Below, piece after piece: positions 6,850-52,510 of a stretch of 64,000 nucleotides of DNA; position 1 is the stretch's first letter; each line of letters begins with the position of its first letter. The stretch comes from Clostridia bacterium. Lineage in GTDB: Bacteria > Bacillota > Clostridia > Oscillospirales > Acutalibacteraceae. The notes below the pieces were generated by a model that saw only the letters and a list, made by a program, of their open reading frames with translations, had not been told where the DNA came from and searched no databases. The stretch lies in the NCBI GenBank assembly GCA_017465825.1, contig JAFTVI010000035.1, positions 124,001 through 188,000 on the forward strand, read 5' to 3'. The position numbers and the translations under genes are program-made.

Positions 6850-7226
6850 GTGTTGTTCTTAACGGAGAATTTGAAAATCCTTCAACTTCCGTCGAGAACC
6901 AGCATCGCATTTGTGAGTACAAATGCAGTTGGGCAGTAGCCAAAACCCACTAACAAACAGAAAAGAGCAAGAGTAAAAGGAAAGAATCCTTCTATTCTTG
7001 CTCTTATTTTTTTCTTCTGTCGATATGTCAACTCTGTTGACTCGATATGCTTTCGCTACGCTCAGGCTCGATATATTGGCGCTTTGCGCCAATTCGATAT
7101 GAGATAAATCCCTCGTTTGCGAAGCAAACATATCGAGTGTGTCAGCACATATCGAACGCCGTAGGCGTATATCGAAAATCCCGCAAGGGATTTATCTCGA
7201 TGCGTGTTCTCCGTTAAGGATAACAC
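6850..7226 (+). repeat. Nested-palindrome element with CGATAT-spaced hairpins and 20-bp terminal inverted repeats
   Basis: The ends are 20-bp inverted repeats matching at 18 positions (6850-6869 and 7207-7226, core TTAACGGAGAA). The right half (7020-7200) carries four TCGATAT boxes (7020, 7042, 7068, 7094), then ATATCGA boxes (7130, 7149, 7169) and a variant at 7194. The boxes can pair in nested order. Between them sit small perfect hairpins, for example ATTGGCGC-TTT-GCGCCAAT, ACGCC-GTA-GGCGT and AAATCCC-GCAA-GGGATTT, so the whole folds as a branched tree. The left half (6870-7013) holds a separate 8-bp hairpin at 6907-6926 and a strong terminator. No coding sequence is credible inside. Confidence 0.75.
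6963..7013 (+). terminator. Strong rho-independent terminator inside the repeat element
   Basis: 13-bp stem (AAGAGCAAGAGTA/TATTCTTGCTCTT) with a partly paired loop, followed by A and seven T's. It may end the methyltransferase-GNAT-Nudix transcript or a small RNA. Confidence 0.8.
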
Positions 7227-7333
7227 GCTAATGATTCTCTGTTCTTTTTTTATTAAAATACCATTGTGGGGATTTTGCACAGATGTTTTATCAAAAAAAT
7301 GTCAAAATTTTCACAATAAATGTTACTTTTTCC

Positions 7334-7361
7334 TTGCATTTTATTTTTATTCGGGTATAAT
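7334..7361 (+). promoter_or_regulatory. Promoter of the decarboxylase operon
   Basis: TTGCAT, 16-nt spacer, TATAAT. A second TATAAT lies at 7363-7368. The first gene starts at 7415. Confidence 0.55.
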
Positions 7362-7414
7362 GTATAATGGGTTGAATTTGAAATAGTTTTTTAATCCAAA
7401 CAGGAGGTAAATAT

Positions 7415-8791
7415 ATGAAAGTCCAGTTCACAGAAACAATTCTGCGTGACGCACAGCAGTCTCTGATTGCTACAAGAATGCCCTTTGAAACTTTCAAGCC
7501 CGTTCTTGAAAAGCTCAATAAGGCAGGTTATTATTCACTTGAGTGCTGGGGCGGCGCAACCTTTGACTCTTGTCTTCGTTATCTTGATGAAGATCCCTGG
7601 GAGAGACTCAGAAAAATCAAGGCTGCTTGTCCCGATACAAAGCTTCAGATGCTTCTCAGAGGTCAGAATCTTCTCGGTTACAAGCATTATCCCGATGACG
7701 TTGTCCGTATGTTCGTAAGAAAGAGCGTAGAAAACGGTATTGACGTTATCAGAATTTTCGATGCTCTCAACGACCTTCGCAACATTCAGGTTGCCGTTGA
7801 TGAAACAATCAAGGCAGGTGCAATCGCATCAGGTACGATCTGCTACACCACAAGCCCTGTTCACACTCTTGAAAAGTTTGTTGAAATCGCAAAAGAGCTT
7901 GAAAATATGGGCGTACAGACAATCTGTATCAAGGATATGGCAGGCGTTATGAGCCCCAAAGAGGCTTACGACCTTGTTAAGGCTATCAAGGCGGAGGTTA
8001 AGCTTCCTCTCGTTCTTCATACACATTCCACAACAGGTCTCGGCTTTATGACACTTCTCAAGGCTGTTGAGGCTGGTGCAGATATCATTGATACGGCACT
8101 TTCAAGTATGTCAGGCGGTACAAGCCAGCCTGCAACAGAAACAATGGCTTACGTGCTCCGTCAGTACGGCTACGACGTATCTCTTGACGATAAGCTTCTT
8201 ATGGAAATCAACAAGCACTTCAAGGGCTACAGAGCAGAATGTCTTGATTCAAAGCTTCTCAATCCCGTTGTTATGGCAACAGATACAGACGCTCTTAACT
8301 ATCAGATTCCCGGCGGTATGCTTTCAAACCTTGTTGCACAGCTTACGGCTATGAATAAGCTTGATAAGCTCGATGAGGTTCTTGCCGAAACTCCCAGAGT
8401 AAGAGCAGATCTCGGTTATCCTCCCCTTGTTACACCTCTGAGCCAGATGGTCGGCGTTCAGGCTACAAAGAACGTTCTTGACGGCGAGCGCTACAAGAAC
8501 ATCGCAAAGGAAATTCAGGGTTATATCAAGGGTGAATACGGCAGAGCTCCCGGCGAAATCAAGCCTGAGCTTATCACAAAGGTTCTCGGCGACGAACAGC
8601 CCATTACCTGCCGTTTTGCCGATACTCTCGCAGACGGTATTCCTGCCGCAAGAGAATATCTCGGTGACAAGGCAACCTGTGATGAGGACGTGCTTTCATA
8701 TATCGCATTCCCTCAGCAGGCAGAGGCTTTCTTCGAAAAGAGAGCAGACCTTAAAAAGCGTACCTTCAGTTTTTCAATAAAGAAAGTTTGA
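7415..8791 (+). CDS. oadA: Oxaloacetate decarboxylase/carboxyltransferase alpha-type subunit
   Basis: 458 residues without a biotinyl domain. The protein is the carboxyltransferase (5S/PycB/OadA) type: TILRDAQQSLIATRM near the start, the LECWGGATFD segment, RIFDALND, the IKDMAGVMSP region with the catalytic lysine, and the HTHSTTG metal-binding histidines. It transfers CO2 between an oxoacid (oxaloacetate is typical) and carrier biotin in the cytoplasm. The biotin carrier is encoded separately two genes downstream, and the membrane pump OadB follows, so the genes would form a Na+-translocating decarboxylase. Substrate by family; methylmalonyl-CoA or glutaconyl-CoA is less likely for this subunit. 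AGGAGG lies before the ATG. Confidence 0.85.
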   Translation: MKVQFTETILRDAQQSLIATRMPFETFKPVLEKLNKAGYYSLECWGGATFDSCLRYLDEDPWERLRKIKAACPDTKLQMLLRGQNLLGYKHYPDDVVRMFVRKSVENGIDVIRIFDALNDLRNIQVAVDETIKAGAIASGTICYTTSPVHTLEKFVEIAKELENMGVQTICIKDMAGVMSPKEAYDLVKAIKAEVKLPLVLHTHSTTGLGFMTLLKAVEAGADIIDTALSSMSGGTSQPATETMAYVLRQYGYDVSLDDKLLMEINKHFKGYRAECLDSKLLNPVVMATDTDALNYQIPGGMLSNLVAQLTAMNKLDKLDEVLAETPRVRADLGYPPLVTPLSQMVGVQATKNVLDGERYKNIAKEIQGYIKGEYGRAPGEIKPELITKVLGDEQPITCRFADTLADGIPAAREYLGDKATCDEDVLSYIAFPQQAEAFFEKRADLKKRTFSFSIKKV

Positions 8792-9324: not shown

Positions 9325-9326
9325 TT

Positions 9327-13696: not shown

Positions 13697-14572
13697 GTGA
13701 AACAGGTAATTTACATAGATGTGTTGATTTTTCTGAATACGGCAATAACCTTTCTTCTCTTATTGGCAACATCGAGGATTACCAAGCTCACGCCATCGGC
13801 AGGTCGGTATGTAATCGGCTCTCTGCTCGGCGGTGCATCATCACTTATAATTTTTGCGCCCGATATGGGCTTGCTTTTGTCTTTGCTGACGAAACTGCTG
13901 TTTTCACTTATCATAGTATCGGTAGTGTATAAACCGAGAAGATTGATGATTACAGCAAAACAGACAGGATATTTTTTCAGTGTCAGCTTTATTTTTGTAG
14001 GTATAATGCTGTGTATAGCATCTTTGCCGGGAGTTTCTCTCATCAGTTATAATAACGGCGTTGCGTACATAGATCTGTCTATGTTCTCGCTTATTGCGGC
14101 GGCGGTTATCTGCTATGCCGTGACCTGCATACTCAACAGCCTTACAAGACACTCGGCTGAGGGTGAAATACTTTATAATATAAAAATCAGCCACAACGGC
14201 GAAACAGTTTCATTAAGCTCTATATTGGATACCGGAAACGGTCTGACTGACCCGTTCAACGGAGAAAGTCTTATTATTGCCGCGCAGAAGGATGTTGCTC
14301 AGCTTCTGAGTGAGGATATTAATAATTATCTGCGGGGCGAAACAGATAAATGCAGTTCGGTACGGCTTGTACCCTGTTCCACAGTTGCTGGTCAGTCGCT
14401 GTTGCCTGTTTTCAGGGCAGATGAAGTAAAAATCACCGGTGGCGGTATGGCTGTCAATATTAAAAATGCGGGAATTGCAGTGTGCACTGCTGAAATCGGC
14501 AATGTAATTCTGCCGTCGAACATATTTGATAATTGCAAAAGGAGAAGAAACAATGAAGTGGTTTACCGTTGA
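13697..14572 (+). CDS. spoIIGA: Sporulation sigma-E-processing peptidase SpoIIGA
   Basis: 291 residues from the GTG at 13697. The upstream in-frame ATG at 13673 lies inside the -10 element, and the protein family starts with an IYIDVL-like helix, both favouring the GTG. Five hydrophobic segments fill the first 150 residues. The C-terminal protease domain holds [12 protein letters not shown], with the aspartic-protease Asp. SpoIIGA cleaves pro-sigma-E at the sporulation septum after a forespore signal. It overlaps sigE by 20 bp, implying coupled translation. The match rests on motif, topology and synteny. Confidence 0.9.
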
Positions 14573-15269
14573 TTACATAAAAAGCTTATTCGTAAGGCTC
14601 AGGCTGAAATTTATGGGCGGCAGAGTGTTTTACATAAACGGACCCCAGACGCTCCCTCCGCCGCTCACAAAAGCACAGGAGGAGGAATGCTTGCATCTGC
14701 TGTCCGAGGGTGATAAACAGGCGAGAGAGAAGCTGATAACACATAATCTGCGCCTTGTGGTTTATATCGCAAAAAAATTTGAGAATACGGGAATTTGCGT
14801 TGATGACCTTGCATCAATCGGCACAATAGGTCTGATTAAAGCGGTGAATACATTCTGCCCCGAAAAAAATATAAAGCTTGCAACCTATGCAAGCCGATGT
14901 ATAGAAAATGAGATTCTTATGTATTTAAGAAAAGCAAGCAACCGAAAAACAGAGCTGTCATTTGATGAACCGCTGAATGTGGACCACGACGGAAATGAGC
15001 TTTTGCTGTCGGACGTATTGACCGATCAGGAGAGTGTAGTTGACAGCTCCATAGAATACGAGGAAGAAAAAAATATGCTGCACGCCGTTGTGAACGCATT
15101 GAACGAGCGCGAGCGTATGATAATAAATATGCGTTTCGGCATAGACGGCGGCGAGGAGCATACACAAAAAGAGGTTGCGGATATACTTGGTATTTCACAA
15201 AGCTATATTTCAAGACTTGAAAAAAGAATACTTGAAAAAATTAAAAGGGAACTGGAAGCTAAACAATAA
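14553..15269 (+). CDS. sigE: Sporulation sigma factor sigma-E (pro-form)
   Basis: 238 residues, the expected length. The first ~28 residues are a basic/hydrophobic pro-sequence removed by SpoIIGA. The mature part begins near GPQTLPPPL and contains region 2 ([42 protein letters not shown]) and region 4 ([22 protein letters not shown]). It directs mother-cell transcription early in sporulation. The ATG at 14553 has AAAAGGAG upstream. The gene ends CAA TAA, and these bases are also the first bases of the repeat element at 15264. Unlike many relatives, sigG does not follow. Confidence 0.95.
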
Positions 15270-15475
15270 TTTATCGGCAGATGCCGATAAATTATTGTAG
15301 CGATATAAATCCGTAAACGGATTTTCGATATACCTGACGATGCGATATATACATTCGTATACGATATGTGCCTGTCGGCACGCGGATTTATATCATATCG
15401 CATTTGATCAAAGCGACAAATATATCGCGTTGTAAACATATCGCGTTGCGTCAGCAACATATCGCTAAATTATTG
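15264..15475 (+). repeat. Nested-palindrome element with CAATAATTTA boxes and CGATAT-spaced hairpins
   Basis: Bounded by CAATAATTTA (15264) and TAAATTATTG (15466). A third box at 15288 closes a 34-nt end palindrome around TCGGC-AGAT-GCCGA. The body alternates (G/T/A)CGATAT boxes on the left and ATATCGC boxes on the right with small hairpins such as AAATCCGT-AA-ACGGATTT, GTGCC-TGTC-GGCAC and GTTGC-GTCA-GCAAC. It is built like the element at 6850. It supplies the sigE stop codon and separates sigE from the convergent gene at 15537. Confidence 0.75.
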
Positions 15476-15536: not shown

Positions 15537-16508
15537 TTAATTCCATACTATGGTCATTGTAAGACCTAAGCGCTGATAGTTTACGCCTTCAACAAAGTTA
15601 AGGTCGAGTATTGCTTCTTCGAGAGCATTTGCCATTTCCACGTTATCCATAAAGAATGTTGCGTGCAATGTAAGCTCTTCAGGTGATATCATATCAAACA
15701 GCTTGAAGCCTGTGAGCCACCAATGAGGTTCGGGACCTCGTGTCATATATAACTCGTCACCCTTGTAAAGCGCAAATGACATTGTGATTTTTGCATCATC
15801 ATCAGCGCAGGCGTAGAAGTCAACATCTGTGCCTTCCTTTTTGTAGTAAATACCTACTTCCGCACCGGTTGTAATGCCGTATCTGCCTTTCCAGACCTGT
15901 ATCATCCAATCGTACTTGTCGTAATTGAACTTAAGACGGATGGTATCGTAATACATACCGAAGAACGCCGCGCCTGCATCATAAAGGGATGTGTAGCCGA
16001 GATTGCGCTGGAAGGATTCGCTTTCAGAGTAGAAAATACCCTGCTCCTTATCGTATCTGAAACCTGCGGCAAGAACGACTTCACCTACGGTTTTTGCTAC
16101 GCCTGTAAGACCTGTGAGTGAGTTATCGTCGGTAACGGTTCCGTCTGTTACAACGTGGAACATCGGCTTTGAAGGCTTGGGCGACTGAGTGGTAACCTCA
16201 ACCTTGGTTGTGTAGGTTTCCGCCTCTGCAAGGAACTGCTCTATGTAGCTCTCTTCCTCGGACTGAGTTGTGGTTTCGGGGACAGTTGTGGTTTCTGTTG
16301 TTTCTTCGGTTGTTTTTTCCTGAGGCTGTACAATTGTTGTAACCACAGGGGCTTTTGTGAAGTCCTCCACAAGTCCGTCGTTTGATACTGCATTATCGGG
16401 ATTGCTTACGATAAGGTAAACTGCAACTGCGGCAACTGCCAGTATTACAACAGCAATAAGGGCAAATATGACCGTCTTTTTCTTTCCCGATTTCATTTTA
16501 TTTTTCAC
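15537..16508 (-). CDS. Membrane-anchored extracytoplasmic protein, unknown
   Basis: 323 residues. A Lys-rich cytoplasmic start is followed by one transmembrane helix (about 12-34), a Thr/Glu-rich linker (about 60-110) and a globular C-terminal part of roughly 200 residues outside the cell. That part has two similar-looking halves (FRYDKEQGIFYSESESF ... and IYYKKEGTDVDFYACADD ...) but matches no family I recognise. It lies 13 bp downstream of the alkaline phosphatase gene on the same strand, so is likely co-transcribed with it. The linker style is shared with several other exported proteins in the window. Confidence 0.6.
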   Translation of the reverse strand: MKNKMKSGKKKTVIFALIAVVILAVAAVAVYLIVSNPDNAVSNDGLVEDFTKAPVVTTIVQPQEKTTEETTETTTVPETTTQSEEESYIEQFLAEAETYTTKVEVTTQSPKPSKPMFHVVTDGTVTDDNSLTGLTGVAKTVGEVVLAAGFRYDKEQGIFYSESESFQRNLGYTSLYDAGAAFFGMYYDTIRLKFNYDKYDWMIQVWKGRYGITTGAEVGIYYKKEGTDVDFYACADDDAKITMSFALYKGDELYMTRGPEPHWWLTGFKLFDMISPEELTLHATFFMDNVEMANALEEAILDLNFVEGVNYQRLGLTMTIVWN

Positions 16509-16521
16509 TTCCGTTTTTTAA

Positions 16522-17664
16522 TCAATAATTAAATACCTCGGCAGGGAACTGTTCCTGTGTGAAACCGAGTGTGTATGCGATTCTCTGGGGAATCTCATAG
16601 TTGTTGATTGTTTCGCCGTCTTTTACAAAGTTGTCAGAACCGTAAGCGAGAACATATACATCAGCAGCAGAATGTCCGCCCTGAGTGAAGGAATATGTGC
16701 CGTCATCATTTTTGACAATACCGCCTGTTTCGTGGTCAGCTGTGATAACAACAAGAGTTTCACCGTCTGCTTCTGCATATTCAAGAACAGCTGCGATGGT
16801 TTTATCAAACTCTTCGAGAGCTTCCGTCATTCCCTCATCGTAATTGCTGTGGGAGTGCTTGTCAATATGAGCGCCCTCAACCATAAGGAAGAAGCCTTCG
16901 TCTGTATCGTCAAGCAGGTCGATAGCTTTCATTGTCATCTGCTCAAGGTTGGGAGTGTTTGCGTCTGACTGTTCAAGTGTCCACAGATTGTTTGTAAACT
17001 GAGCAAAGCTGCGGCTGCCTTCTTCAAGAGCCATCATTTCGTCGTAAGTTGTAACATATGTAAAGCCGTTTGCTTCAACCTCTGCCTTTTCTGCATAGCC
17101 GTTTTCGCCGCCCCAGATAAGGTCTGCATCGGATGCGAGCTGATCAAGAGTGATTTCTTCCGTGTTGTTTCTTGATGACTCGTGAGCTGAGAATGCTGAG
17201 GGAGTAGCGCCTGATGTAGCGTCAGTTGTAACAACACCTGTCATCATACCGTTCTGAGCGCAAAGCTCTCTGATATTCATAGGATGAGAGAAAATATCAA
17301 GTGGGTCAAGCAGATAAACACCGATTGCACCGTTGTATGTTCTCACACCTGATGAAAGGGCAGTGCCGCCTGCGGCTGAGTCTGTAATCAATGAAGAAAG
17401 AGAACAGGTTCTTGAGTATGCTGTGTACTCAAAGGTGTCCATTACAAGAGTAATATTTCTCTCCTGCTTTGCCTTCTCAAGATGAAGCTGTCCCATACCG
17501 TCGCCGATAAGGAGAATAACGTTTTTGACGTTTTCGTTCAGATAATCTTCTGCATTGAGTGTTGAAGTTTCTGCGTGGAGTCCGGTAGTTGTAAGGAATG
17601 TCATAATCACGGACATAAGTACGGCTGTGATTTTTGACCAGATTGCGCCAAGTGCTGCTAACAT
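16522..17664 (-). CDS. Secreted alkaline phosphatase
   Basis: 380 residues from the ATG at 17664, which has GAGGTG six bases upstream (the longer GTG start overlaps that site). An N-terminal hydrophobic segment of about 30 residues looks like a signal or anchor. Family motifs: VILLIGDGMG (metal site), TDSAAGGTALSSG with the catalytic serine, GAHIDKHSH, ITADHETGG and GGHSAADV. It hydrolyses phosphomonoesters outside the membrane with Zn/Mg. Together with the two phosphoesterases at the start of the window this suggests strong extracellular phosphate scavenging. Confidence 0.9.
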   Translation of the reverse strand: MLAALGAIWSKITAVLMSVIMTFLTTTGLHAETSTLNAEDYLNENVKNVILLIGDGMGQLHLEKAKQERNITLVMDTFEYTAYSRTCSLSSLITDSAAGGTALSSGVRTYNGAIGVYLLDPLDIFSHPMNIRELCAQNGMMTGVVTTDATSGATPSAFSAHESSRNNTEEITLDQLASDADLIWGGENGYAEKAEVEANGFTYVTTYDEMMALEEGSRSFAQFTNNLWTLEQSDANTPNLEQMTMKAIDLLDDTDEGFFLMVEGAHIDKHSHSNYDEGMTEALEEFDKTIAAVLEYAEADGETLVVITADHETGGIVKNDDGTYSFTQGGHSAADVYVLAYGSDNFVKDGETINNYEIPQRIAYTLGFTQEQFPAEVFNY

Positions 17665-17735
17665 AAAAAACACCTCATTAAAATATTTTATTTATTGATA
17701 TAATACCACTGAGTATTATAAAAATCAAGTTGTTT

Positions 17736-19226
17736 TTACAAAACGGATAAATCAAGTTGGTCAAACTGTTTTATGAATTCTGCAAACTGCGACAGAATGG
17801 TGTCAACTCCGCCCTGTGTGTTGCTTTCGATGTTGAAAGGAAGTATGGGGTCGTGAACACTCAAGCGAAGGAGCATCCAGCCGTTACCGTGATTTTTGTC
17901 AAGAGAAATCCGTATGCCCTCATAATTGTCGGGAGCGACAGCCCAGCCGTCCTGTGATTCTGCGTACTCAAAAAGCTCTGCAATGACCTTTTCGCCGTAG
18001 GCTCTGAAATCCTCTGTAAGAATTTTAAAACGAAGCTCTTTTTCTTCACAGGGTTCTTTAAGCTGTGCAATCAGATCTTTAAGTGATTTGCCTTCTTTTC
18101 TGAGATTTGCAAGCAGAATGATTATTTTCGTGATGAGATATGCGCCGTCATCAAGAAAATAATTCTCTTTAAGAGCGGCGTGTCCCGAGGTTTCGATTGC
18201 AAGGGGAGCGCTGACGTCTTCATTTTCGAGCCTGATTGCCTCGTTGATAACGTTTTTATAGCCTCTTCTGAATCGGTGATGCTTGCCGCCGAGATGCTTT
18301 TCTATAAATTCGTGAAGTCCGTCACTTGTTACGGAATCGGTAACGATTGTTGCGCCGGGATTGTTTTCAAGGGCAATAACAGATGCGAGCGCAACAAGCC
18401 TGTTTCTGTTTATTTCTTCGCCTGATGCGTCAACACAGGCGGCTCTGTCTACGTCGGTGTCAAAAATAACACCCAGATCGGCATTTGCCGATATAACGGC
18501 ATCCGAAATGAATTTCATTGCAACCTTGTTTTCCGGATTGGGTGTATGATTGGGGAACATTCCGTCAGGCTCCAGGAAAAGTGAACCCGAAATATCTGCG
18601 CCAAGCTCTTTGAGCACTTTTTCAGCGTAAAATCCGCCTGCGCCGTTACCTGCATCTGTTACAATATGAAATCCTTCGAGAGGTTTTTCGTAATTTTCCG
18701 CATTGACACCTTCGCAGATCATTTTTCTTAAAATTGCGGAGTATTCACTCATAAAATCGGTAGGAATGGCCTTGTGATTACCTGTAACGGCTGAAATATC
18801 AGCATTTTCGGCAAGAGTGAGAATTTTTGTTATGTCGCTGCCCTCAAATCCGCCATCCTTCGTGAAGAATTTAAGTCCGTTTTTGTCGTATGGATGGTGA
18901 CTTGCGGTTATCTGTACGGATGCCGTACATCCAAGCGTAACGGTTGTCATAAACATAGCAGGAGTTGAGGAAAGTGAGCAGTCGAGAACTTTTATATTGC
19001 TTGAACAAAGAACATCAATTACTGCGTTTTTGATTCTTTCAGCCGATATTCTTGAATCGTGACCTATCGCTATGCACATTTCATCGGGTGCAAGCCCCGT
19101 CTTTTCCTGCATAAGCAGAATGAATGCGGCTGTTATCTTTTTTATCGCTTCGTCGGTAAGCTCCGTGCCGTCGCCTACGGCTGTGCCTCTTATGTCTGTA
19201 CCGCTTTTAAGCTTCAATAGGGACAT
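17736..19226 (-). CDS. Phosphohexomutase (phosphoglucomutase/phosphomannomutase family)
   Basis: 496 residues from the ATG at 19226 with GGAGTG upstream. Alpha-D-phosphohexomutase signature: GTDIRGTA at the start, GHDSR, the phosphoserine loop TASHHPYDKNG (usually TASHNP; here His replaces Asn), the metal-binding DTDVDR, and ETSGHAALKENYFLDDGAY for sugar recognition. It interconverts hexose 1- and 6-phosphates for cell-envelope sugar synthesis; glucose versus mannose cannot be decided. It starts 4 bp after the sigma-like gene stops, so the two share a transcript. Confidence 0.85.
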   Translation of the reverse strand: MSLLKLKSGTDIRGTAVGDGTELTDEAIKKITAAFILLMQEKTGLAPDEMCIAIGHDSRISAERIKNAVIDVLCSSNIKVLDCSLSSTPAMFMTTVTLGCTASVQITASHHPYDKNGLKFFTKDGGFEGSDITKILTLAENADISAVTGNHKAIPTDFMSEYSAILRKMICEGVNAENYEKPLEGFHIVTDAGNGAGGFYAEKVLKELGADISGSLFLEPDGMFPNHTPNPENKVAMKFISDAVISANADLGVIFDTDVDRAACVDASGEEINRNRLVALASVIALENNPGATIVTDSVTSDGLHEFIEKHLGGKHHRFRRGYKNVINEAIRLENEDVSAPLAIETSGHAALKENYFLDDGAYLITKIIILLANLRKEGKSLKDLIAQLKEPCEEKELRFKILTEDFRAYGEKVIAELFEYAESQDGWAVAPDNYEGIRISLDKNHGNGWMLLRLSVHDPILPFNIESNTQGGVDTILSQFAEFIKQFDQLDLSVL

Positions 19227-19230
19227 TTTA

Positions 19231-20457
19231 TCACTCCAATGGTTCAATATAAACGGCATTTTCATCCGCACCGCCGGCAGTTGCTTCGGTGGTAGTTTCA
19301 GCTGTCGTAGTGGTTTCCGCTTCGGTGGTAGTTTCAGTTTCGGTAGTGGTTTCCGCCTCGGTTGTAGTTTCTGCTTCGGTGGTCGTTTCTGCCTCCGTAG
19401 TAGTTTCCGCTTCGGTGGTCTGCTCTTTTGTGGTTATTTCGAGCGTGGTCGTTTCTGATGTGTTGTCGTAATTGCCTACCGTGCCCGTGTTGTCCGCCGC
19501 ATTACGGTTTTGTATTGCAAGCACAACAGCAACCGTTCCGCCTATAATAATGAGAATTGCAATAATTGCCATAAGCACCTTGACGGCGGGTGACATATCC
19601 TGCCCGAAGTTTTTTTTCTGCTGAGTTACGGTAGCGTACGGTGAAGCCTGATAATTGCCTGTTTTTCTCTGTGTTGCGGTCTGCGGGATAGGTGCTGTAT
19701 TCTGGTCTGATAAGTCATCCGCAGTGTGCAGTTTTTTCATACAGTTGATGCCTGTTCTTGCGGTGACGCTTGATGCGATATCCCGCGGAATAACAATGCT
19801 CTCTGCCATAGTTGACAGAACTTCCGCAAAGAATGTTACCATTCCGTCAACATCATAGCCGATGCCGGAATATTTGTGTTCTTCCGTTTTAAGGCGCACC
19901 CTCGCTTTGTAAAGCCTGTTTTTGTATGCCGCCAATGAAATCTGCTCTATCTGCGCGATTTCGTTTTCTTCAAAGCCGCAGAAGTAATGAAGAATCGTAA
20001 CATTACGGAGCTTCTGAGGCATTTCGGAAAGAATAGAGTCGGCAGTCTGCATAATATCTACGGTTATGTCGATGCCGCCCTGATAGTTGAGCATATCGTC
20101 GTAATCCTGAGTGAGAAGAAGGTCTATTCTTTCTCCCTCGGCTGAGTTGGAGTCCAGATAATCTCCGAAGACCTCGGGACGGTTGCTTATTATAAAACGC
20201 CTGCACTGACTGAAAACCGTTGTGTACAGCCATTTTTCAAAGGTGGCGGCGTTTGGCAGCTTTGCAGTCTGTATGTATGCAAGGTCAAATATATCTACGG
20301 TCATTCTCTTTGCCTCAGCCTTACTTTTGAGGAGCTTACAGCAAAGAAAATATACCTTTTTTTCGTACATTTCAAAAATATCCGCAAATGCATCTCTTGC
20401 ACCGTTTTTGATGCTTGAGAGAAGTATGGAAAGCTTTCTGTATTCATCACTTGTCAT
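19231..20457 (-). CDS. ECF-like sigma factor fused to transmembrane helix and Thr/Glu-rich tail
   Basis: 408 residues, with GGAGG before the ATG. Residues about 10-100 resemble sigma region 2 (DAFADIFEMYEKKVYFLCCKLL and a later FEKWLYTTVFSQCRRF), and about 150-190 resemble region 4 (LRNVTILHYFCGFEENEIAQI...AYKNRLYKAR). A spacer, then one transmembrane helix (about 295-320), then an extracellular tail of repeated TTTEAE units. The arrangement is that of a membrane-tethered sigma or DNA-binding sensor without a separate anti-sigma factor. The sigma regions are divergent, so transcriptional activity is not certain. Confidence 0.65.
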   Translation of the reverse strand: MTSDEYRKLSILLSSIKNGARDAFADIFEMYEKKVYFLCCKLLKSKAEAKRMTVDIFDLAYIQTAKLPNAATFEKWLYTTVFSQCRRFIISNRPEVFGDYLDSNSAEGERIDLLLTQDYDDMLNYQGGIDITVDIMQTADSILSEMPQKLRNVTILHYFCGFEENEIAQIEQISLAAYKNRLYKARVRLKTEEHKYSGIGYDVDGMVTFFAEVLSTMAESIVIPRDIASSVTARTGINCMKKLHTADDLSDQNTAPIPQTATQRKTGNYQASPYATVTQQKKNFGQDMSPAVKVLMAIIAILIIIGGTVAVVLAIQNRNAADNTGTVGNYDNTSETTTLEITTKEQTTEAETTTEAETTTEAETTTEAETTTETETTTEAETTTTAETTTEATAGGADENAVYIEPLE

Positions 20458-20566
20458 GAAATCAACCTCCGATTATATATTATATTACATTTAAATGCAA
20501 AATTCAATAGGAATAATCAATAGGGCACCTCTGAAAACTCAATACACAATTATTTATGAAATTCTA

Positions 20567-20595
20567 TTGCAAAATTGTGTAAAATGAATTACAAT
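20567..20595 (+). promoter_or_regulatory. Promoter of the GPH symporter gene
   Basis: TTGCAA, 17-nt spacer, TACAAT. It excludes the earlier in-frame ATG at 20584 as a start, since that ATG lies inside the spacer. Confidence 0.65.
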
Positions 20596-20637
20596 AATTA
20601 TGATTATAATTCCGGATGTATGCAAGGAGGAAATGAA

Positions 20638-22119
20638 GTGGCAGAAATGCAGACTGCTGTTGACAAGCAAAAAGAACAACAGAATAAGTTTTATCTTTCG
20701 CCAAAGGAAATGGCATCATATATACTTTCGGGTGTGGGTGATAAAAACTGGGAAACCTTCAGCGGAAGTAACTCGGACTTTTATTACAGAACCATCGTGG
20801 GTGCTGAGGCGGCTACGCTCAGTACGGCAAGCGTTATATGCACCTTTGCCGATACATTTGACAATGCAATATCGGGCCCTATTCTTGACAGAACAAGAAC
20901 AAGATGGGGCAGAGTGCGTCCTTATCTTCTGCTGACACTGCCTTTGTGGTTGTTTGCCAATATGACCCCCTGGATTCTGCCTGCAGGAATGTCGCAGATC
21001 GTGTATCTTGGCATATTTGCCGTTCTTTATTACATAGGTTCAATTGCCAACTCGTTTTATAACCCTGCTTATTCTGCGCTGCTTTACAACCTTACTCCAA
21101 ATGTAAACGAGCGAAACCGTCTTATTGCGGCAGATACTTACGTTGACCTTTTCGGTGTGTGGATACCGTCGCTGTTCCCGTTTTTTATCGACTTTCTGCC
21201 CGAATCTGTTTCAAGACGCTCGATTTATGTGGGCGGTGCGCTGTTTTTTATAGCTCTTGTTGTGATTTTCAGAACTTTCGGCTTCTTTACGCTTCGCGAA
21301 AGAGTGCCCCTTGCATCAAGGCAGGAAATGAATCAGGTAAGCGTGTGGCAATCCGTCAAAATGGTTGCAAAATGCCAGCCGATGTGGATTCTTCTGCTCA
21401 AAGGCTTTTTTGAAATCGGCAGAGGTATCAGCTCCCGAGTGCAGAACGACTTCTGGCTTAATTGCTTCGGCAAGGTTTCGTACAGCACAATAACAAGCCT
21501 TTTTACGGGACTTCCGAGCTATTTTGTTCTTCCGCTTGCACCAAAGCTCACAAAGAAAATGGGGCTTAAAAATCTTGCATCTATGAGTTATGCAATCTGT
21601 GGCGTTACGTATATCGTTATGTGGTTTATCGGCTACAATCCTTTCGGTGACGATCATCTTGTGCTTAATCTTATTTATATGACGATAGGTCTTACCGTTG
21701 CAGGCTCCTTCAACAGCGTGCAGAGATACTGTACAACTGCTCTTACAGGCGATATGTATGACTATGTGGAGTGGAAAACAGGCATCAGAAACGAAGGTAT
21801 TATGAGCGCGGCTATGGGATATGTAAATCTCATAGTAAATCAGGTTTCCACACTTCTCAGCGGCGGTCTTATTACTGTTCTCGGTGTAAAATCCAAATAT
21901 ATGGGCGGCAAGCTTGTGCGTCAGACCGACCCCGTTATGCTCAGAAATATATGGACGCTCTTTGCATTGCTTATCGGCGTGGGCAGAACAATTGAAGCAA
22001 TATTGCTGCAGTTCTTTAAGGTTCACGGCAAGACGAGAGAGCAGATGATGCACGATCTCGCTGTTTCACGAGCCGCAAAGGTGCTTGATACGGGTAAAAA
22101 AGATGATGAAAGTCAATAA
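20638..22119 (+). CDS. GPH-family sugar:cation symporter
   Basis: 493 residues from the GTG at 20638, which has a strong AAGGAGG seven bases upstream and lies downstream of the promoter. Polytopic, about 12 transmembrane helices. Glycoside-pentoside-hexuronide (MelB-like) features: the DNAISGPILDRTRTRWGRVRP loop region after helix 2, YNPAYSALLYNLTP and a central TLRERVP loop. It imports a glycoside, pentoside or hexuronide with Na+ or H+. No glycosidase lies beside it, so the substrate is open. It is divergent from the sigma-like gene. Confidence 0.85.
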   Translation: MAEMQTAVDKQKEQQNKFYLSPKEMASYILSGVGDKNWETFSGSNSDFYYRTIVGAEAATLSTASVICTFADTFDNAISGPILDRTRTRWGRVRPYLLLTLPLWLFANMTPWILPAGMSQIVYLGIFAVLYYIGSIANSFYNPAYSALLYNLTPNVNERNRLIAADTYVDLFGVWIPSLFPFFIDFLPESVSRRSIYVGGALFFIALVVIFRTFGFFTLRERVPLASRQEMNQVSVWQSVKMVAKCQPMWILLLKGFFEIGRGISSRVQNDFWLNCFGKVSYSTITSLFTGLPSYFVLPLAPKLTKKMGLKNLASMSYAICGVTYIVMWFIGYNPFGDDHLVLNLIYMTIGLTVAGSFNSVQRYCTTALTGDMYDYVEWKTGIRNEGIMSAAMGYVNLIVNQVSTLLSGGLITVLGVKSKYMGGKLVRQTDPVMLRNIWTLFALLIGVGRTIEAILLQFFKVHGKTREQMMHDLAVSRAAKVLDTGKKDDESQ

Positions 22120-22134
22120 AATTTTTTACTGCTA

Positions 22135-22163: not shown

Positions 22164-22205
22164 ATTATCTGTATAATACTATATTTTTCTCAAGGAGGAA
22201 AAACA

Positions 22206-23407: not shown

Positions 23408-23702
23408 AATTTAGAAGGAAATTGAATTGGTATCGTAGGGACGCCTATCGGGCGTCTGTATGAAATATAACATCTGCACAGACAAAACAGAGAATACAAG
23501 GCTCCCTCAATGAGGGAGCTGGATTTTGCGTAGCAAAAGACTGAGGGAGTTAAAATTTGCAGCAACTTTACTCCATCCGTCGCCTCCGGCGTCCACCTTC
23601 CTCAAAGAGGAAGGCTTGCTGCTCTTTGTTTGCTTTTGTGCTGTTACTTTACAGACGCCCGATGGGTGCTCCTACGATATCAAATTAATCCGTAGATAAA
23701 TT
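23408..23702. repeat. Nested-palindrome element with outer TCGTAGGG arms and two inner hairpins
   Basis: Outer arms of about 36 nt are inverted (23425-23460 against 23650-23685), carrying TCGTAGG and GGGCGTCTGTA. Inside are GCTCCCTCA-A-TGAGGGAGC (23501-23519) and CCTTCCTC-AAA-GAGGAAGG (23596-23614). Short AATTTA/TAAATT boxes flank it. The GCTCCCTC/GAGGGAGC module is, to my recollection, a common intergenic repeat in gut Clostridia. It fills the gap between the genes at 22206 and 23759; nothing coding was seen. Confidence 0.7.
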
Positions 23703-29293: not shown

Positions 29294-30223
29294 ATGAAGA
29301 GTTACAGACCTGAGGGCAGAATAATATATAATAAAACGGCAGGGAACGCTGTGTATTCGGTAGCCTCTCTGTATGAGGCGATTACAAAGGGCACTATTCT
29401 TGAGGCGAGAGCGCTGTTGTGCGACAATGAACATAATCTTCACGTTGATTTAGGGTGTATGCGCGGAATTATACCGAGGAATGAGTGTGCAATCGGCATA
29501 AATGACGGTACTGCACGGGATATAGCCATAATTTCAAGAGTCAACAAGCCTGTGTGTTTTAAGGTGCTTGAAATTGAAAACAGCATAAACGGAATACCCT
29601 TTGCTGTGCTGTCAAGGCGTGCGGCACAGCAGGAATGTGTTGATGAATACATATCGTGGCTGTCAAACGGAGATGTTATTGACGCTGCTGTTACGCATCT
29701 TGAACCGTTCGGCGCGTTTTGTGATATCGGTTGCGGAATAAGCGCACTTCTTCCCATTGACGGCATTTCCGTTTCGAGAATTCCGCATCCTTCTGCAAGA
29801 TTAACGGTCAACGGCGATATTAAAGCAGTTGTGCGCAATATTGACGAGCTGGGAAGAATCACATTGACCAGAAAGGAACTGCTCGGCACCTGGCAGGAAA
29901 ATGCTGATTTGTTCAGCATCGGTCAGACCGTGCCCGGAATAGTCCGTTCGGTTGAAAGCTACGGCATTTTCGTTGAGCTTACACCAAACCTTGCAGGTCT
30001 TGCGGAGCTTGTGGATGATGTAAAAGCAGGGGAGTATTGCAGTGTGTTTATTAAAAATATCATCCCCGAAAAAATGAAGGTCAAGCTGATAATCGTGGAT
30101 AGCTTTTCTGCGGCATATCCTGCGGAAGAAACAAAATATTTCTTTGAGGGTACACATATGGATTCATTTGTTTATTCACCGGAGAATTGCGAAAAGGTTG
30201 TAAGGAGCGATTTTAAGCAATAA
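29294..30223 (+). CDS. S1 RNA-binding-domain protein (ribosomal protein S1-like)
   Basis: 309 residues. Three S1/OB-type modules are visible: about 35-110 (ARALLCDNEHNLHVDLGCMRGIIPRNE), about 125-200 (HLEPFGAFCDIGCGISALLPI) and about 215-285 (PGIVRSVESYGIFVELTPNLAGLAEL). It is shorter than full S1 and more likely a Clostridial S1-like translation or RNA-decay factor. GAAAGGAAGG lies before the ATG. The last codon and stop (CAA TAA) coincide with the first bases of the repeat at 30218. Divergent from the DUF951 operon. Confidence 0.8.
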   Translation: MKSYRPEGRIIYNKTAGNAVYSVASLYEAITKGTILEARALLCDNEHNLHVDLGCMRGIIPRNECAIGINDGTARDIAIISRVNKPVCFKVLEIENSINGIPFAVLSRRAAQQECVDEYISWLSNGDVIDAAVTHLEPFGAFCDIGCGISALLPIDGISVSRIPHPSARLTVNGDIKAVVRNIDELGRITLTRKELLGTWQENADLFSIGQTVPGIVRSVESYGIFVELTPNLAGLAELVDDVKAGEYCSVFIKNIIPEKMKVKLIIVDSFSAAYPAEETKYFFEGTHMDSFVYSPENCEKVVRSDFKQ

Positions 30224-30378
30224 TTTATCAGTTAGTAGTGAGTAGTGAGAAGTGAGGAGTGAAGGAAAAGGTTCCGCCTTTTGAACCATTGTAATGTTTA
30301 AAATCCAATTGTTACGTACAATCTTGAATTTTTATTTAATTATGAATTATGAATTATGCATTATGAATTAAATTATTG
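30218..30378 (+). repeat. Nested-palindrome element, 161 nt, CAATAATTTA boxes
   Basis: Begins CAATAATTTATCAGTTAG (30218) and ends TAAATTATTG (30369-30378). The left part is the AGTGAGR-type tandem also seen in the uxaC-flanking copies, followed by AAAAGG-TTCCG-CCTTTT. The right part is tandem ATGAATT/ATGCATT octamers as in the element at 52323. A hybrid of two element types, which shows the modular build. The stop codon of the S1 gene lies in its first box. Confidence 0.7.
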
Positions 30379-31817: not shown

Positions 31818-31820
31818 GAT

Positions 31821-32034
31821 ATAATTTAGCGGAATGTTGATGATATATCGTAGGGAGCGACGCCCTCGTCGCTCCGATTGGTGAAAATGTACCATTTGCA
31901 TCAATAAAATAATTTATCGCAAATCCAAAAACATTTATGTTGGTGTTTTTGTAAAATTGTAATTATCAAAATCGCAGATTTTGATAATTCGGCGCGACGA
32001 GGGCGACGCGCCCTACAGAACATCTCTAAATTAT
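31821..32034. repeat. Nested-palindrome element with TCGTAGGG arms
   Basis: Flanked by ATAATTTAGC (31821) and CTAAATTAT (about 32026). Outer arms 31848-31876 and 31990-32017 are inverted and GC-rich (GCGACGCCCTCGTCGC type). An inner ATTATCAAAATC-GCA-GATTTTGATAAT hairpin spans 31962-31988. Same architecture as the element at 23408. Together with the terminators it fills the gap between lipase and ferredoxin. Confidence 0.65.
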
Positions 32035-32052
32035 GTTTATCTGCCAAGCAAT

Positions 32053-42313: not shown

Positions 42314-42384
42314 AAAAATTCTCCTTCTTTGAGAAAACATAAAAGCCTACACCGGGTTAAGGCATAGGCTTCAAGTTGTATAAA

Positions 42385-42663
42385 TCAGTTTTCGTAAACG
42401 CTGACCTTCTTGCGGTCTTTGCCCATACGCTCAAATTTAACGGTACCGTTAACAAGAGCAAAAAGAGTGTCGTCAGAACCCTTGCCGACATTGTTGCCGG
42501 GGTGGATATGAGTGCCTCTCTGGCGAACAAGAATTGTTCCTGCATTAACAGCCTGACCGTCTGCACGCTTTACGCCGAGTCTTTTTGATTCAGAATCACG
42601 GCCGTTACGGGTTGAACCCGCACCTTTCTTATGTGCGAAGAGCTGAATGTTTATCTTAAGCAT
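42385..42663 (-). CDS. rpmA: 50S ribosomal protein L27
   Basis: 92 residues. Has the Firmicutes N-terminal extension MLKINIQLF, which is removed by the Prp protease after the Phe, leaving AHKKGAGS as the mature start. [21 protein letters not shown] follows. L27 sits near the peptidyl transferase centre. It is 2 bp downstream of prp, its processing enzyme. Confidence 0.97.
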
Positions 42664-42665
42664 AA

Positions 42666-42977
42666 TTACACCTCCGTAGTTATTTCGATAAAGTCCGGAT
42701 TGTCTTTGGCAAGCTCCGTTAAATGAAGCTGTAAGCCTTTAAGCATATCCGTTGCAGCCTTTGATGTGCTGCTGAGCATAATTTTCATATATCCGTCGTT
42801 AACGTCTGCATCAATGTCGATTCCGAGAATTTCGGTTACGGTGTTGACTGCCATATATGCCGCAGAAGAAACTGCCGCACATATAATATCCTGTCCGCAT
42901 TCTGCGTAACCGGAATGTCCGTCAATAACAAAGCCGCAGGGCTCATTGTTGCGGATATAAAAGGTTGCCCGAATCAT
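42666..42977 (-). CDS. prp: Ribosomal-processing cysteine protease Prp
   Basis: 103 residues. [18 protein letters not shown] contains the catalytic His (HSG) and Cys (the last C) of Prp, the protease that cuts the N-terminal extension of L27. Its position between rplU and rpmA is the standard one in Firmicutes. The rplU stop and prp start overlap by 1 bp, so translation is coupled. Confidence 0.95.
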
Positions 42978-43288
42978 TAAGCGTTGATTGAAGCAACTTC
43001 AATCTTTGTGTAGGGCTGTCTGTGACCCATCTTACGCTTTTCGTTCTTCTTTGCCTTGTAGGTTGAAACAGTGATCTTCTTGCCCTTGCCGTTCTTAACA
43101 GCCTTAGCAACAACTGTTGCACCTGCAACATAGGGAGCGCCGACTTTGATGCCGTCGTCTGCACCTACAGCAATAACCTTATCAAAAACTACTTCGCTGT
43201 CAGCTTCAACGTCAAGCTTCTCGATGAAAACAATTGAGCCTTCCTCGACTTTGTACTGCTTGCCGCCTGTTTCGATAATTGCGTACAT
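42977..43288 (-). CDS. rplU: 50S ribosomal protein L21
   Basis: 103 residues. [24 protein letters not shown] and [22 protein letters not shown] are classical L21 segments. First gene of rplU-prp-rpmA, preceded by an AAGGAAGG site and a structured leader. Confidence 0.97.
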
Positions 43289-43377
43289 TGTGATTTACCT
43301 TCCTTTGATAGACTCGCTGCGACGGGCGGTTAAAACGCTTGTAAGGGCATAGTTATCCCTTGCCTGCCACATGCGGC
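43289..43377 (-). promoter_or_regulatory. rplU leader region (L21-leader-like)
   Basis: About 90 nt of untranslated leader between the promoter and rplU, containing an AAGGG...CCCTT hairpin and a GGCAGGC segment. Such leaders often regulate the L21 operon; family membership was not tested. Confidence 0.4.
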
Positions 43378-43383
43378 TTAACA

Positions 43384-43412
43384 ATTTTATCATACAAAAC
43401 GGGGTTTGTCAA
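43384..43412 (-). promoter_or_regulatory. rplU operon promoter
   Basis: Minus-strand TTGACA, 17-nt spacer, TAAAAT. Confidence 0.8.
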
Positions 43413-43440: not shown

Positions 43441-43603
43441 CAATAATTTATCAGTTAGTAGTGGGGAGTGAGAAGTGAGGAGTGGAGGAAAAGGCTCCGC
43501 CTTTTGAACCATCTGAATCCAAGCCGCTTTGCGGCTTCCTTAACTCCTAACTCATCACTCCTGACTCCTAACTACAATAATTTAGCGGTACGCTAAATTA
43601 TTG
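43441..43603 (+). repeat. Nested-palindrome element copy A, 163 nt, at 3' side of uxaC
   Basis: Starts CAATAATTTATCAGTTAG and ends with a 29-nt palindrome CAATAATTTAGCG-GTA-CGCTAAATTATTG (43575-43603). Inside: AGTGRGR tandem, AAAAGGC-TCC-GCCTTTT, AAGCCGC-TTT-GCGGCTT and TAACTCC-type repeats complementary to the left tandem. About 93% identical to the inverted copy at 45070-45232. It ends 1 bp before the stop codon of uxaC. Confidence 0.85.
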
Positions 43604-43604: not shown

Positions 43605-45005
43605 TTAAATGCCAAAGAACTTCTTCGCATTATTATATGAAATATCTTCTGCTAATTTTGCAAGAGCTTTTTCGTCGTTGGGGTAAAGGCCTTTTGCAAC
43701 CATATCGCCCATAAGACCGCAGAGAATACGGCGGAAATACTCGTGTCTGGGGTAGGAGAGGAAAGAACGTGAGTCTGTGACCATACCTACAAATTTACCG
43801 AGTGCGCCGAGGTTACCGAGAGTTTTCATCTGCTCTCTCATACCGTCGATATTGTCGTTGAACCACCAGGCAGAGCCGAACTGAATCTTGCTTTCTGCCT
43901 CGCTTGACTGGAAGTTGCCCAGCATTGTGCCGAGAACATAATTGTCTTTCGGATTGAGTGTGAAGAGCACCGTTTTGGGAAGATTGCCCTCAACAGCAAG
44001 TGAATCAAGCATTCTTGAAAGCTTCTGTGCAATCTCTTTGTCGTCGATTGAATCGTAGCCTGTGTCGGGACCGAGCTTTCTGAACATCGCTGTGTTGTTG
44101 TTTCTCATAGCGCCCATATGAAGCTCCATTACCCAGCCGCGCTTTGCGTATTCAGCGGCAAGAACCTGAAGAAGAGCAGTTTTGAACTTGTCGGCCTCAA
44201 CGAGTGATATTGCCTCGCCGTTTACGCCTTTATTAAATATGATTTCAAGCTCATCAGCCGTTGCCTCTTCATAGGGAACATAAGTGAATGCGTGGTCACT
44301 TGCACAGCAACCGAGAGAATCGAAAAATTCAATTCTTTCCTTAAGCACTTCACAAAGAGCAACAAAGCTTTCAATCTTTCTGCCTGCTCTGTTCTCCATA
44401 TCATTGAGCCAGGGTTTCCAGGCGGGAGCTTCTACTGCAAGAGCCTTGTCGGGTCTGAATGCAGGGAGCACCTTGCACTTAAAGCTGTCATCCTGTGCCA
44501 GAAGAATGTGATATTCAAGGCTGTCGGCAGGGTCGTCAGTTGTGCAAAGATGTGATACGTTTGATTTTTCTATAAGCTCTCTGGGAGTGAAACCGCCTGC
44601 ATTGATTGCAGCGTTCGCTCTGTTCCATATATCGTCTGCGGTGTCCTCGTTGAGAATGTCGTAAATACCGAAGTAACGGCGGAGCTCAAGATGTGACCAG
44701 TGGTACATCGGGTTGCCGATAAGGCAGGGCATAATTGATGCAAATTTCTTGAATTTTTCGTATCCGCTTGCATCGCCTGTGATGTATTTTTCATCAATAC
44801 CGCAGGAGCGCATAGCACGCCATTTATAGTGGTCGCCGCCGAGCCAGAGATATGCAATATCTGCCGGCTGCTTGTTTTCGTAAATCTCTTTGGGGGAAAG
44901 GTGGCAGTGCCAATCGAAAATAGGCATTTTGTCAGCCGCCTCAAAAGCCCTGAGCGCAGGCTCATTGTCTAAAAGGAAATCGTTTCCCATAAATTCTTTT
45001 ATCAT
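43605..45005 (-). CDS. uxaC: Glucuronate isomerase
   Basis: 466 residues from the ATG at 45005 (GAGGTG six bases upstream). Uronate isomerase of the amidohydrolase fold: FDWHCHLSPKEI (metal histidines), WLGGDHYKWRAMRSCGI, a central ELHMGAMRNNN, GSAWWFNDN and LSYPRHEYFRRILCGLMG. It turns glucuronate into fructuronate (or galacturonate into tagaturonate) for uronic acid use. It stands without uxuA/uxaB neighbours. Both flanks carry inverted copies of one 163-nt repeat, so the gene may have moved as a cassette. Confidence 0.93.
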   Translation of the reverse strand: MIKEFMGNDFLLDNEPALRAFEAADKMPIFDWHCHLSPKEIYENKQPADIAYLWLGGDHYKWRAMRSCGIDEKYITGDASGYEKFKKFASIMPCLIGNPMYHWSHLELRRYFGIYDILNEDTADDIWNRANAAINAGGFTPRELIEKSNVSHLCTTDDPADSLEYHILLAQDDSFKCKVLPAFRPDKALAVEAPAWKPWLNDMENRAGRKIESFVALCEVLKERIEFFDSLGCCASDHAFTYVPYEEATADELEIIFNKGVNGEAISLVEADKFKTALLQVLAAEYAKRGWVMELHMGAMRNNNTAMFRKLGPDTGYDSIDDKEIAQKLSRMLDSLAVEGNLPKTVLFTLNPKDNYVLGTMLGNFQSSEAESKIQFGSAWWFNDNIDGMREQMKTLGNLGALGKFVGMVTDSRSFLSYPRHEYFRRILCGLMGDMVAKGLYPNDEKALAKLAEDISYNNAKKFFGI

Positions 45006-45025
45006 TTGAAACACCTCTTTAGTAT

Positions 45026-45069: not shown

Positions 45070-45232
45070 CAATAATTTAGCGTATCGCTAAATTATTGTA
45101 GTTAGGAGTTAGGAGTGATGAGTTAGGAGTTAAGGAAGCCGCAAAGCGGCTTGGATTTAAATGGTTTAAAAGGCGGAGCCTGTTCCTTCACTCCTCACTT
45201 CTCACTCCTCACTGCTAACTGATAAATTATTG
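45070..45232 (-). repeat. Nested-palindrome element copy B, 163 nt, inverted relative to copy A
   Basis: Same length and modules as 43441-43603 in opposite orientation: it starts with the CAATAATTTAGCG palindrome (45070-45098) and ends CTGATAAATTATTG. Differences from copy A are scattered single bases. It lies between the uxaC promoter and the terminator of the acyl-CoA ligase gene. Confidence 0.85.
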
Positions 45233-48863: not shown

Positions 48864-48879
48864 GTGCAGAAAGTAAAAA

Positions 48880-48935
48880 ATAATTTAGCACAATTTCGTA
48901 GGGCGCGTCGCCCCCTACAATTATGATAAATTTTA
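48880..48935. repeat. Short nested-palindrome element with TCGTAGGG module
   Basis: AATAATTTAGC at one end, TGATAAATTT at the other, enclosing TCGTAGGGCGCG/CGCCCCCTACA. It looks like a minimal member of the 23408 and 31821 type. Confidence 0.45.
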
Positions 48936-52236: not shown

Positions 52237-52244
52237 TAAACTTT

Positions 52245-52273
52245 CGGGTGTCCCTTCGGATGCCCGATTATTT
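52245..52273 (+). terminator. Hairpin behind the 50371 gene, probable terminator
   Basis: CGGGTGTCC-CTTC-GGATGCCCG, with an ATTATTTT tail. Confidence 0.6.
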
Positions 52274-52322
52274 TGGTTGAATGGTCTCAGAAGTGACTTA
52301 CATATAATAGTATAGGGAAAAA

Positions 52323-52510
52323 CAATAATTCATAATGTATAATGCATAATTCATAATTAGGTAAGGGGCAAAGCCCCTTACCTAATTTGTAGTAATACAA
52401 GTTTCTCGAATGCGAAGCGTGAGAGTTTTTCTAATGGATTAAAAGGCGGAGCCTTTTCCACAATTATGCATTATGAATTGTGAATTATGAATTATTCAAA
52501 TGAATTATTG
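52323..52510 (+). repeat. Nested-palindrome element, 188 nt, CAATAATTCA box variant
   Basis: Ends are CAATAATTCA and TGAATTATTG. Tandem ATAATGCATAATTCATAATT-type octamers on the left mirror ATTATGCATTATGAATT on the right. Inside are AGGTAAGGGGC-AAA-GCCCCTTACCT and AAAAGGC-GGA-GCCTTTT. The octamer module also occurs in the element at 30218. It fills the gap between the 50371 and TetR genes. Confidence 0.7.

Follow-up and report, generated by a model that had tools for sequence, protein, structure and literature searches.

The Correia (or NEMIS) elements of Neisseria, the RUP elements of pneumococcus and the ERIC elements of enterobacteria are non-coding repeats of less than 200 bp, mostly intergenic, with inverted-repeat ends, a terminal TA and transcripts that fold back (passages of the Delihas review, PMC2229807). 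MITEAba12 of Acinetobacter is a short miniature inverted-repeat transposable element (MITE), one copy of which is fused to the 3′ end of a gene and gives a proposed stop codon (excerpts of PMC6382973). Among repetitive extragenic palindromes (REPs), ends that supply a stop codon have been published, and a 2013 survey places repeats with a GTAG foot in Proteobacteria, Cyanobacteria, Chloroflexi and the Planctomycetes-Verrucomicrobia-Chlamydiae group (sections of PMC3733652). Here we analyze a stretch of 64,000 nucleotides, hereafter the window (G000:C28:124001-188000), from the genome of a Clostridia bacterium whose assembly measures 2.2 Mb in 37 contigs and is 87% complete. It contains intergenic elements bounded by a shared end sequence, the box. 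Like Correia/NEMIS, RUP and ERIC, these box elements are short and mostly intergenic, with inverted-repeat ends, TA at most termini and predicted foldback transcripts. Unlike them, they carry unrelated interiors on one quasi-palindromic end, which is also seen as a bare palindrome, they strongly prefer stop codons, and no parental insertion sequence (IS) was found for them with five Pfam families in 11 genomes. MITEAba12 differs by its 9-bp duplication, its proposed parent (ISAba12) and its single kind of interior. We conclude that a mosaic of MITE-like repeats and REPINs (inverted REP pairs), common in some species of one genus and with an unusual preference for stop codons, is real. The box elements are probably non-autonomous, MITE-like mobile repeats whose interiors, REPINs among them, recombine.

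The end of the elements is a quasi-palindromic 14-mer, TAAACAATAATTTA (inner 12 bp AACAATAATTTA), found inverted at both ends of many dispersed copies; a complete element reads TAAACAATAATTTA, interior, TAAATTATTGTTTA. One end is often a whole small palindrome of 27–36 bp, from outer C to outer G, and such palindromes also exist bare, in several identical copies. The 10-mer CAATAATTTA is the second commonest 10-mer in 770,564 bp of the window's genome, with 94 copies on both strands against about 5 expected from an order-3 model. Over whole genomes, the 14-mer occurs 135 times in this genome (reversed control 0), 93 times in the sister species G007, and 96, 20, 6 and 2 times in G009, G006, G004 and G010, respectively. 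Exact copies are absent from G001, G002, G003, G005 and G008, and the 14-mer is thus present in six of the 11 genomes of the genus, that of the window included. Many contigs of G007, G009 and G006 start about 110–140 bp into a box element, which means that these repeats interrupt assembly and that the copy numbers given are probably too low.

Outside the genus, five of 69 genomes hold any TAAACAATAATTTA. In G046, from another genus of the same family, 13 copies stand inverted at the outer ends of other repeats (L284–L296), which were not counted as the same family. A palindrome scan of 84,980 genomes returned 51 stretches, whose named relatives are mainly metagenome-assembled genomes (MAGs) of gut Clostridia and Oscillospiraceae: 32 fall in two MAGs (sheep and yak, taken as G009 and G007), seven in SUG254, two in UBA5904, one in SIG652 and one in a rabbit MAG. 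The remaining eight come from other taxa, have different loops and were attributed to chance. We found no account of the box family in the open-access literature, including that on MITEs of Ruminococcus and Clostridia and on REPIN systems in Firmicutes, most subscription journals lying outside this search; papers matching the box and tag strings dealt with Borrelia proteases and yeast origins.

Boxes were counted in 1,166,375 bp of the window's genome and 695,278 bp of G007. Batch 2 of the former and batch 1 of the latter were chosen partly for contigs with matches, and densities per megabase are therefore biased upwards. Genes were called by a simple open reading frame (ORF) rule (at least 80 aa) with no gene finder. 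This sample holds 130 box clusters, 106 of which were scored complete (71 in the window's genome and 35 in G007), two of these being 13-bp overlap artefacts. The boxes CAATAATTTA..TAAATTATTG are exact at both ends in 79 of the 106 and mismatched in 27, the two artefacts included. The window itself contains five exact left and six exact right boxes, and each left box is paired with a right box no more than 420 bp away, compared with a mean of 0.12 left and 0.12 right boxes and 0 pairs in 200 order-3 Markov simulations. An earlier note on this DNA had considered that copies might be absent elsewhere in the genome and that box sharing might fall to chance; copies proved abundant elsewhere, and box sharing lies far above chance.

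That note had united nine loci under one box-bounded design. The design is clear at 15264, 30218, 43441, 45070 and 52323, degenerate at 31821 and 48880, and not seen at 6850 and 23408, where no box occurs at up to two mismatches. The loci are as follows.

7019..7200, no strand assigned: ATATCG/CGATAT hairpin array without boxes (the 6850 locus), within an imperfect 20-bp inverted repeat, 6850-6869 and 7207-7226 (by eye).
15264..15475, plus strand: complete box element with a type b interior and exact boxes; solo palindrome 15264-15297, ATATCG/CGATAT hairpin array, closing box 15466-15475.
23435..23676, no strand assigned: pair of GTAG-tagged palindromes without boxes, enclosing another repeat, AAGGCTCCCTC..GAGGAAGGC, at about 23498-23619 (by eye).
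30218..30378, plus strand: complete box element, chimeric, with exact boxes and a heptamer (AATTATG) body.
31819..32036, no strand assigned: type c element with outer boxes at two mismatches each and a REPIN-like GTAG..CTAC REP pair at 31850-32016.
43441..43603, plus strand: complete box element of type a with exact boxes; box, GAGTTAG-type heptamer arm, two GC hairpins, heptamer arm, solo palindrome 43575-43603.
45070..45232, minus strand: complete box element of type a with exact boxes, an inverted copy of 43441 (95%); solo palindrome 45070-45098, closing box 45223-45232.
48878..48933 (right limit by eye), no strand assigned: small GTAG..CTAC palindrome (48898-48918) with a one-mismatch left box and no right box within two mismatches.
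52323..52510, no strand assigned: box element whose boxes, at 52323 and 52501, carry one mismatch each (CAATAATTCA and TGAATTATTG), with AATTATG heptamer arms, an AAAAGGC..GCCTTTT hairpin and a GGGGC hairpin.

Interiors fall into four types. Type a has two arms of 7-bp periodicity around GC-rich hairpins (about 110–190 bp), type b consists of short-hairpin arrays joined by ATATC/CGATAT (about 212–314 bp), type c has GTAG..CTAC cores (106–167 bp) with arms mostly unlike on the left and right, and type d is a short loop only. Type c figures come from a separate survey of GTAG..CTAC cores, since in the folding set described below some heptamer copies carrying CCCGTAGGGC were labelled 'c'. What unites the proposed family is the box end; its interiors belong to three or more unrelated kinds of repeat. 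The kind with TCGTAGGG arms, present as described at 23408, 31821 and 48880, is a GTAG-tagged REP pair. CGATAT arrays do occur at 6850 and 15264, although the 6850 locus has nothing else in common with the box elements. Hairpin arrays are also found free of boxes: the sample has 17 array clusters, nine of which overlap with box elements, and among those without boxes are 6850 and some possibly coding arrays. The AAAAGGC-GGA-GCCTTTT module attributed to four elements is whole in 43441 and 52323 but altered in 30218 and 45070, and the ATGAATT tandems of 30218 and 52323 are present with a unit of 7 bp instead of the octamer proposed. Heptanucleotide repeats are familiar from the STRR (short tandemly repeated repetitive) sequences of cyanobacteria. 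The TAACTGA repeats of Beggiatoaceae and cyanobacteria are also intergenic and made of 7-bp tandem units (parts of PMC4679880), whereas the heptamers of the box elements form two foldback arms enclosed by boxes.

The dispersal of whole elements and the exchange of their parts are both visible in the 43441 subfamily. The 43441 element has 59 matches in the window's genome, 17 of them 112–170 bp long at 86–100% identity and in unlike flanks; single 7-bp units are gained or lost among the long copies. The left 72 bp of 30218 belong to this subfamily (94%), and its body and right half belong to the AATTATG-heptamer subfamily of C28:21188 (85% over 150 bp), whose first 98 bp are in turn shared with C22:47529 (95%). 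Judged from these alignments, 30218 is a chimera of two subfamilies. Type c copies combine a few arm types on the left and right in mixed fashion (by eye). The chimera and the mixed arms bear out the suggestion that modules are exchanged between members.

The type c core, as far as its sequence tells, is a GTAG-tagged REP pair of the REPIN type. Its tag, GTAGGGAGCGACGCCCTCGTCGCTCC and relatives, carries GTAG at the foot of a short palindrome and occurs in inverted pairs. At up to two mismatches, 118 tags were counted in the window's genome, against 0 in the reversed control. Paired GTAG..CTAC cores are held by 17 complete box elements, and of the 46 exact tags in the sample 12 lie inside box elements and 34 outside. 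As with GTAG REPs and their REP-associated tyrosine transposases (RAYTs), type c combines the GTAG foot, inverted pairs and high copy number with a RAYT-like gene flanked by repeats; unlike in those systems, only the core of type c fits, and the outer boxes are not REPs. With the RAYT-like ORF of G004 as query, relatives were found in three genomes: G006, the window's genome (where the relative is interrupted) and G002 (where it is partial). The interrupted remnant (C16:50105-50674, L301) is in two pieces with one in-frame stop and has type c repeats on both sides, to which the core at 31850-32016 of the window is 78% identical over about 170 bp. The open ORFs of G004 (L241) and G006 (L242) likewise have GTAGGG palindromes on both sides. 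Both score above the cut-off for Y1_Tnp; against NCBIfam REP_Tyr_transpos they reach E values of 1.8e-13 and 9.9e-15 (50.6 and 54.7 bits, below the cut-off of 80). In C22 of the window's genome, a repeat like AAGGCTCCCTC..GAGGAAGGC is nested in another type c copy at about 21913-22047 (by eye).

Mobility of the box elements is supported by inference from their insertion sites. In 55 complete elements examined at the TA positions, the outer bases are T in 65% and A in 82%, some ends abutting another module; TAAA is found on both sides in 19 of the 55, on one side in 26 and on neither in 10. At site S72 the window's genome has an empty site, GCA-TAG-ATAATGAGG, and G007 a filled one, GCG-TA-[AACAATAATTTA..GTT]-TAGGGAGAG; G009 is also filled. 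This pair fits an insertion at the TA of a TAG stop. Site S115, filled in G007 and empty in the window's genome, is compatible with insertion at a TAA stop, and the remaining filled/empty pairs are too diverged for a duplication to be read.

Box elements are concentrated at gene 3′ ends. Among the 106 complete elements, 87 face a gene 3′ end within −60 to 300 bp. In 28 an end falls exactly on the stop codon, the A of the element completing TAA, and in 28 a TAA internal to the box serves as stop; together these two classes comprise 55 elements. Of the 74 ends at or beyond a stop, 28 lie exactly on it, compared with 768 of 11,600 available TA sites (6.6%; p ~9e-15). Without the two artefacts the figures become 54 of 104 elements and 27 of 73 ends, and with both boxes exact 23 of 55 ends. 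Three window elements illustrate this position: the plus-strand ORF 14526-15269 ends at a TAA within the first box of element 15264, ORF 29294-30223 ends inside the box of element 30218, and the TAA stop of the minus-strand ORF 43605-45014 sits at the end of element 43441..43603. The element at 48878..48933 lies 49 bp downstream of tRNA-Thr. In orthologue pairs between the window's genome and G007 with an exact-stop element in at least one member, 10 of 11 have three or fewer unaligned C-terminal residues (the filter allowed 20), which places the stop at or near its ancestral position.

Comparison of orthologous gene ends suggests that sites are reused or long occupied. Between the window's genome and G007, 5 of 182 orthologous 3′ ends are occupied in both within 60 bp against 0.8 expected (p 0.0003), the element in the window's genome being approximate for two of the five; this is the stricter count, a looser box rule that admitted chance matches having given 5 of 73 and 7 of 182. 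With spacers of at least 30 bp the figure is 2 of 70 (p 0.03). The interiors at shared ends differ. The gene end at window position 15269 bears the hairpin array in the window's genome, a 36-bp palindrome in G007 and another box element in G009, and no element was present in the six other congeners examined (G002 and G010 lay outside the comparison). In G009 (L201, C54:26600-27557) the gene at this end is one that we take to resemble a sigma factor, and the box element runs into what is presumably an IS30-type-transposase-like sequence just before the contig end. At C28:265724 the window's genome has a heptamer type, G007 a GTAG type and G004 the heptamer type reversed, with degraded boxes, and at C20:9301 the same gene end again carries different interiors in the window's genome and in G007. 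Either gene ends are hot spots or interiors have been exchanged at old sites. Spacers with an element show broken gene order in 17 of 24 cases, and those without in 54 of 149 (p 0.0015); where both spacers measure at least 60 bp the numbers are 9 of 12 versus 20 of 38 (p 0.15, not significant).

Of the three natures that the earlier note had considered (MITE-like element, structured RNA or boundary element), the first is the best fit to dispersed near-identical copies, inverted-repeat ends, outer ends that are mostly TA, one clean filled/empty site and presence in six of 11 genomes. For a boundary element, the association with broken gene order is not significant among spacers of at least 60 bp. 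We propose that a transposase acting in trans would recognize the box end and insert it at TA, often the TA of a stop codon. Since the element starts with A, TA plus A rebuilds a TAA stop, and insertion there would do little harm. REP pairs (moved, at least formerly, by a RAYT), heptamer foldbacks and hairpin arrays would have become enclosed by boxes, and recombination between copies would then reshuffle the enclosed interiors.

Several observations weigh against this proposal. Searches of the 11 genomes of the genus with five Pfam families and a single RAYT protein found no mobilizer of the boxes: above cut-off, PF13358 gave 0, PF01609 1 (G001), PF00872 2 (G001 and G003), PF01797 4 (neither the window's genome nor G007) and PF00665 6 (the window's genome included, G007 and G009 not). 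None of 30 transposase loci inspected has an exact box, although some have single one-mismatch boxes. The putative TA duplication is read from one clean site. The class at offset −3 from the stop is often without TA, and since the box contains a stop, an ORF of this class would in any case terminate there; some such cases may be spurious ORFs owing to the simple ORF rule. Co-occupancy of orthologous ends within 15 bp is only 2 of 182 (p 0.09). The 14-mer of G046, inverted outside other repeats, makes the limits of the element less certain, and the REP pairs next to the RAYT-like genes of the window's genome and G006 (L301 and L300) contain right boxes with one mismatch, so that some link between box and REP pair is possible. 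The failure to find a parental IS lowers but does not exclude MITE membership, because parents are often lost. Box-bounded stretches of 0.46–3.5 kb number two in the sampled sequence, C22:20000-22151 and C28:193079; the former, considered as an autonomous parent, was rejected as a transporter-like gene between type c copies (by eye).

As a tentative extension of the MITE-like reading, the minimal mobile end could be a palindrome of 35–44 bp, TAAACAATAATTTA-loop-TAAATTATTGTTTA, which would move alone into the TA of a stop codon, rebuild the stop and form a socket for swapped cargo (REPINs, heptamer foldbacks or arrays); sister species would then have the same sites with different cassettes.

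An alternative, which we consider unlikely, is that a tyrosine (HUH) transposase of the RAYT or TIRYT type moves boxes and interior together through single-stranded hairpins. The boxes would then be one more REP-like palindrome instead of DDE-type transposon ends. In favour of this are the RAYT remnant of the window's genome and its open relatives in G004 and G006, the bare 27–36 bp palindromes in several identical copies and the one-mismatch right boxes inside REP pairs, and families of terminal inverted repeats flanking tyrosine transposases have been published (in sections of PMC3733652). However, the RAYT-like ORF loci (L241, L242 and L299–L303) have no exact box, G007 has no RAYT relative detectable with the G004 ORF despite its 93 copies of TAAACAATAATTTA, the boxes lack the GTAG tag, and most REP tags in the sample stand outside box elements.

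It is more doubtful still that the elements are a functional RNA or DNA kept by selection, as a bidirectional terminator or a stabilizer of mRNA 3′ ends. Folding is strong, with z < −3 in 98 of the 106 complete elements versus 17 of 60 control spacers (30 shuffles each). In 10 hand-picked elements of different subfamilies, arms pair better with their own partner (mean −0.86 versus −0.49 kcal/nt; 0 of 20,000 permutations), the arm limits being taken from the predicted helix and the own partner being the best in 7 of 10 rows and 3 of 10 columns; when the arm limits had been set crudely, in an earlier test, the effect was weak, with the own partner ranking first in 4 of 10 rows. Stop-codon position and the excess of co-occupied orthologous ends would also suit such a function. 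In contrast, the chimera 30218 folds poorly (z −1.3), the right arm of the 43441 subfamily is nearly invariant while the left varies, leaving no paired changes, the exact 14-mer is absent from five of the 11 genomes, interiors differ at orthologous sites, and matching arms follow equally from the origin of foldbacks. In Rfam searches of the window, only tRNA-Thr reaches its gathering score, the best value in 6800-7260 being 24.1 bits against cut-offs of 70 and 50. A structured RNA under conservation is thus not supported. Individual copies may nevertheless work as terminators or 3′ ends through their folded RNA, although this RNA is not what is conserved.

Chance likeness of AT-rich intergenic DNA, suggested by the AT-rich boxes and by the two loci of nine without boxes and the two with degenerate ones, is a negligible prospect, already refuted for the five box loci by the excess of 10-mers and 14-mers over expectation and control, the lack of simulated pairs and 165-bp copies at 95% identity.

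If the MITE-like reading is true, one short end sequence would suffice to spread unrelated hairpin modules at gene ends while leaving genes unbroken, and two classes that are usually kept apart, TA-type MITEs and RAYT/REPIN systems, would be joined. REPIN-type repeats and RAYT-like genes would then occur in a genus of Clostridia, beyond the phyla named in the consulted sections of the 2013 GTAG survey (later surveys may list more). With the box family one could also study what enzyme mobilizes elements when no parent for them is found in the genome.

The window also records a rearrangement. In G007, G009 and G005 the side of 15543 adjoins the side of 30478 in the opposite orientation, indicating that the block 15537-30223 is inverted in the window's genome, where a box element stands at each junction of this block (15264 and 30218). 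In G005 the gene ending at 15269 adjoins the region 42359-43412, which in the window lies beside element 43441. Elsewhere, the 6850 locus adjoins a strong terminator-like hairpin at about 6962-7016, and positions 19282-19437 consist of 18-bp tandem repeats, seen as seven overlapping copies of a 48-nt reference, inside ORFs called on both strands.

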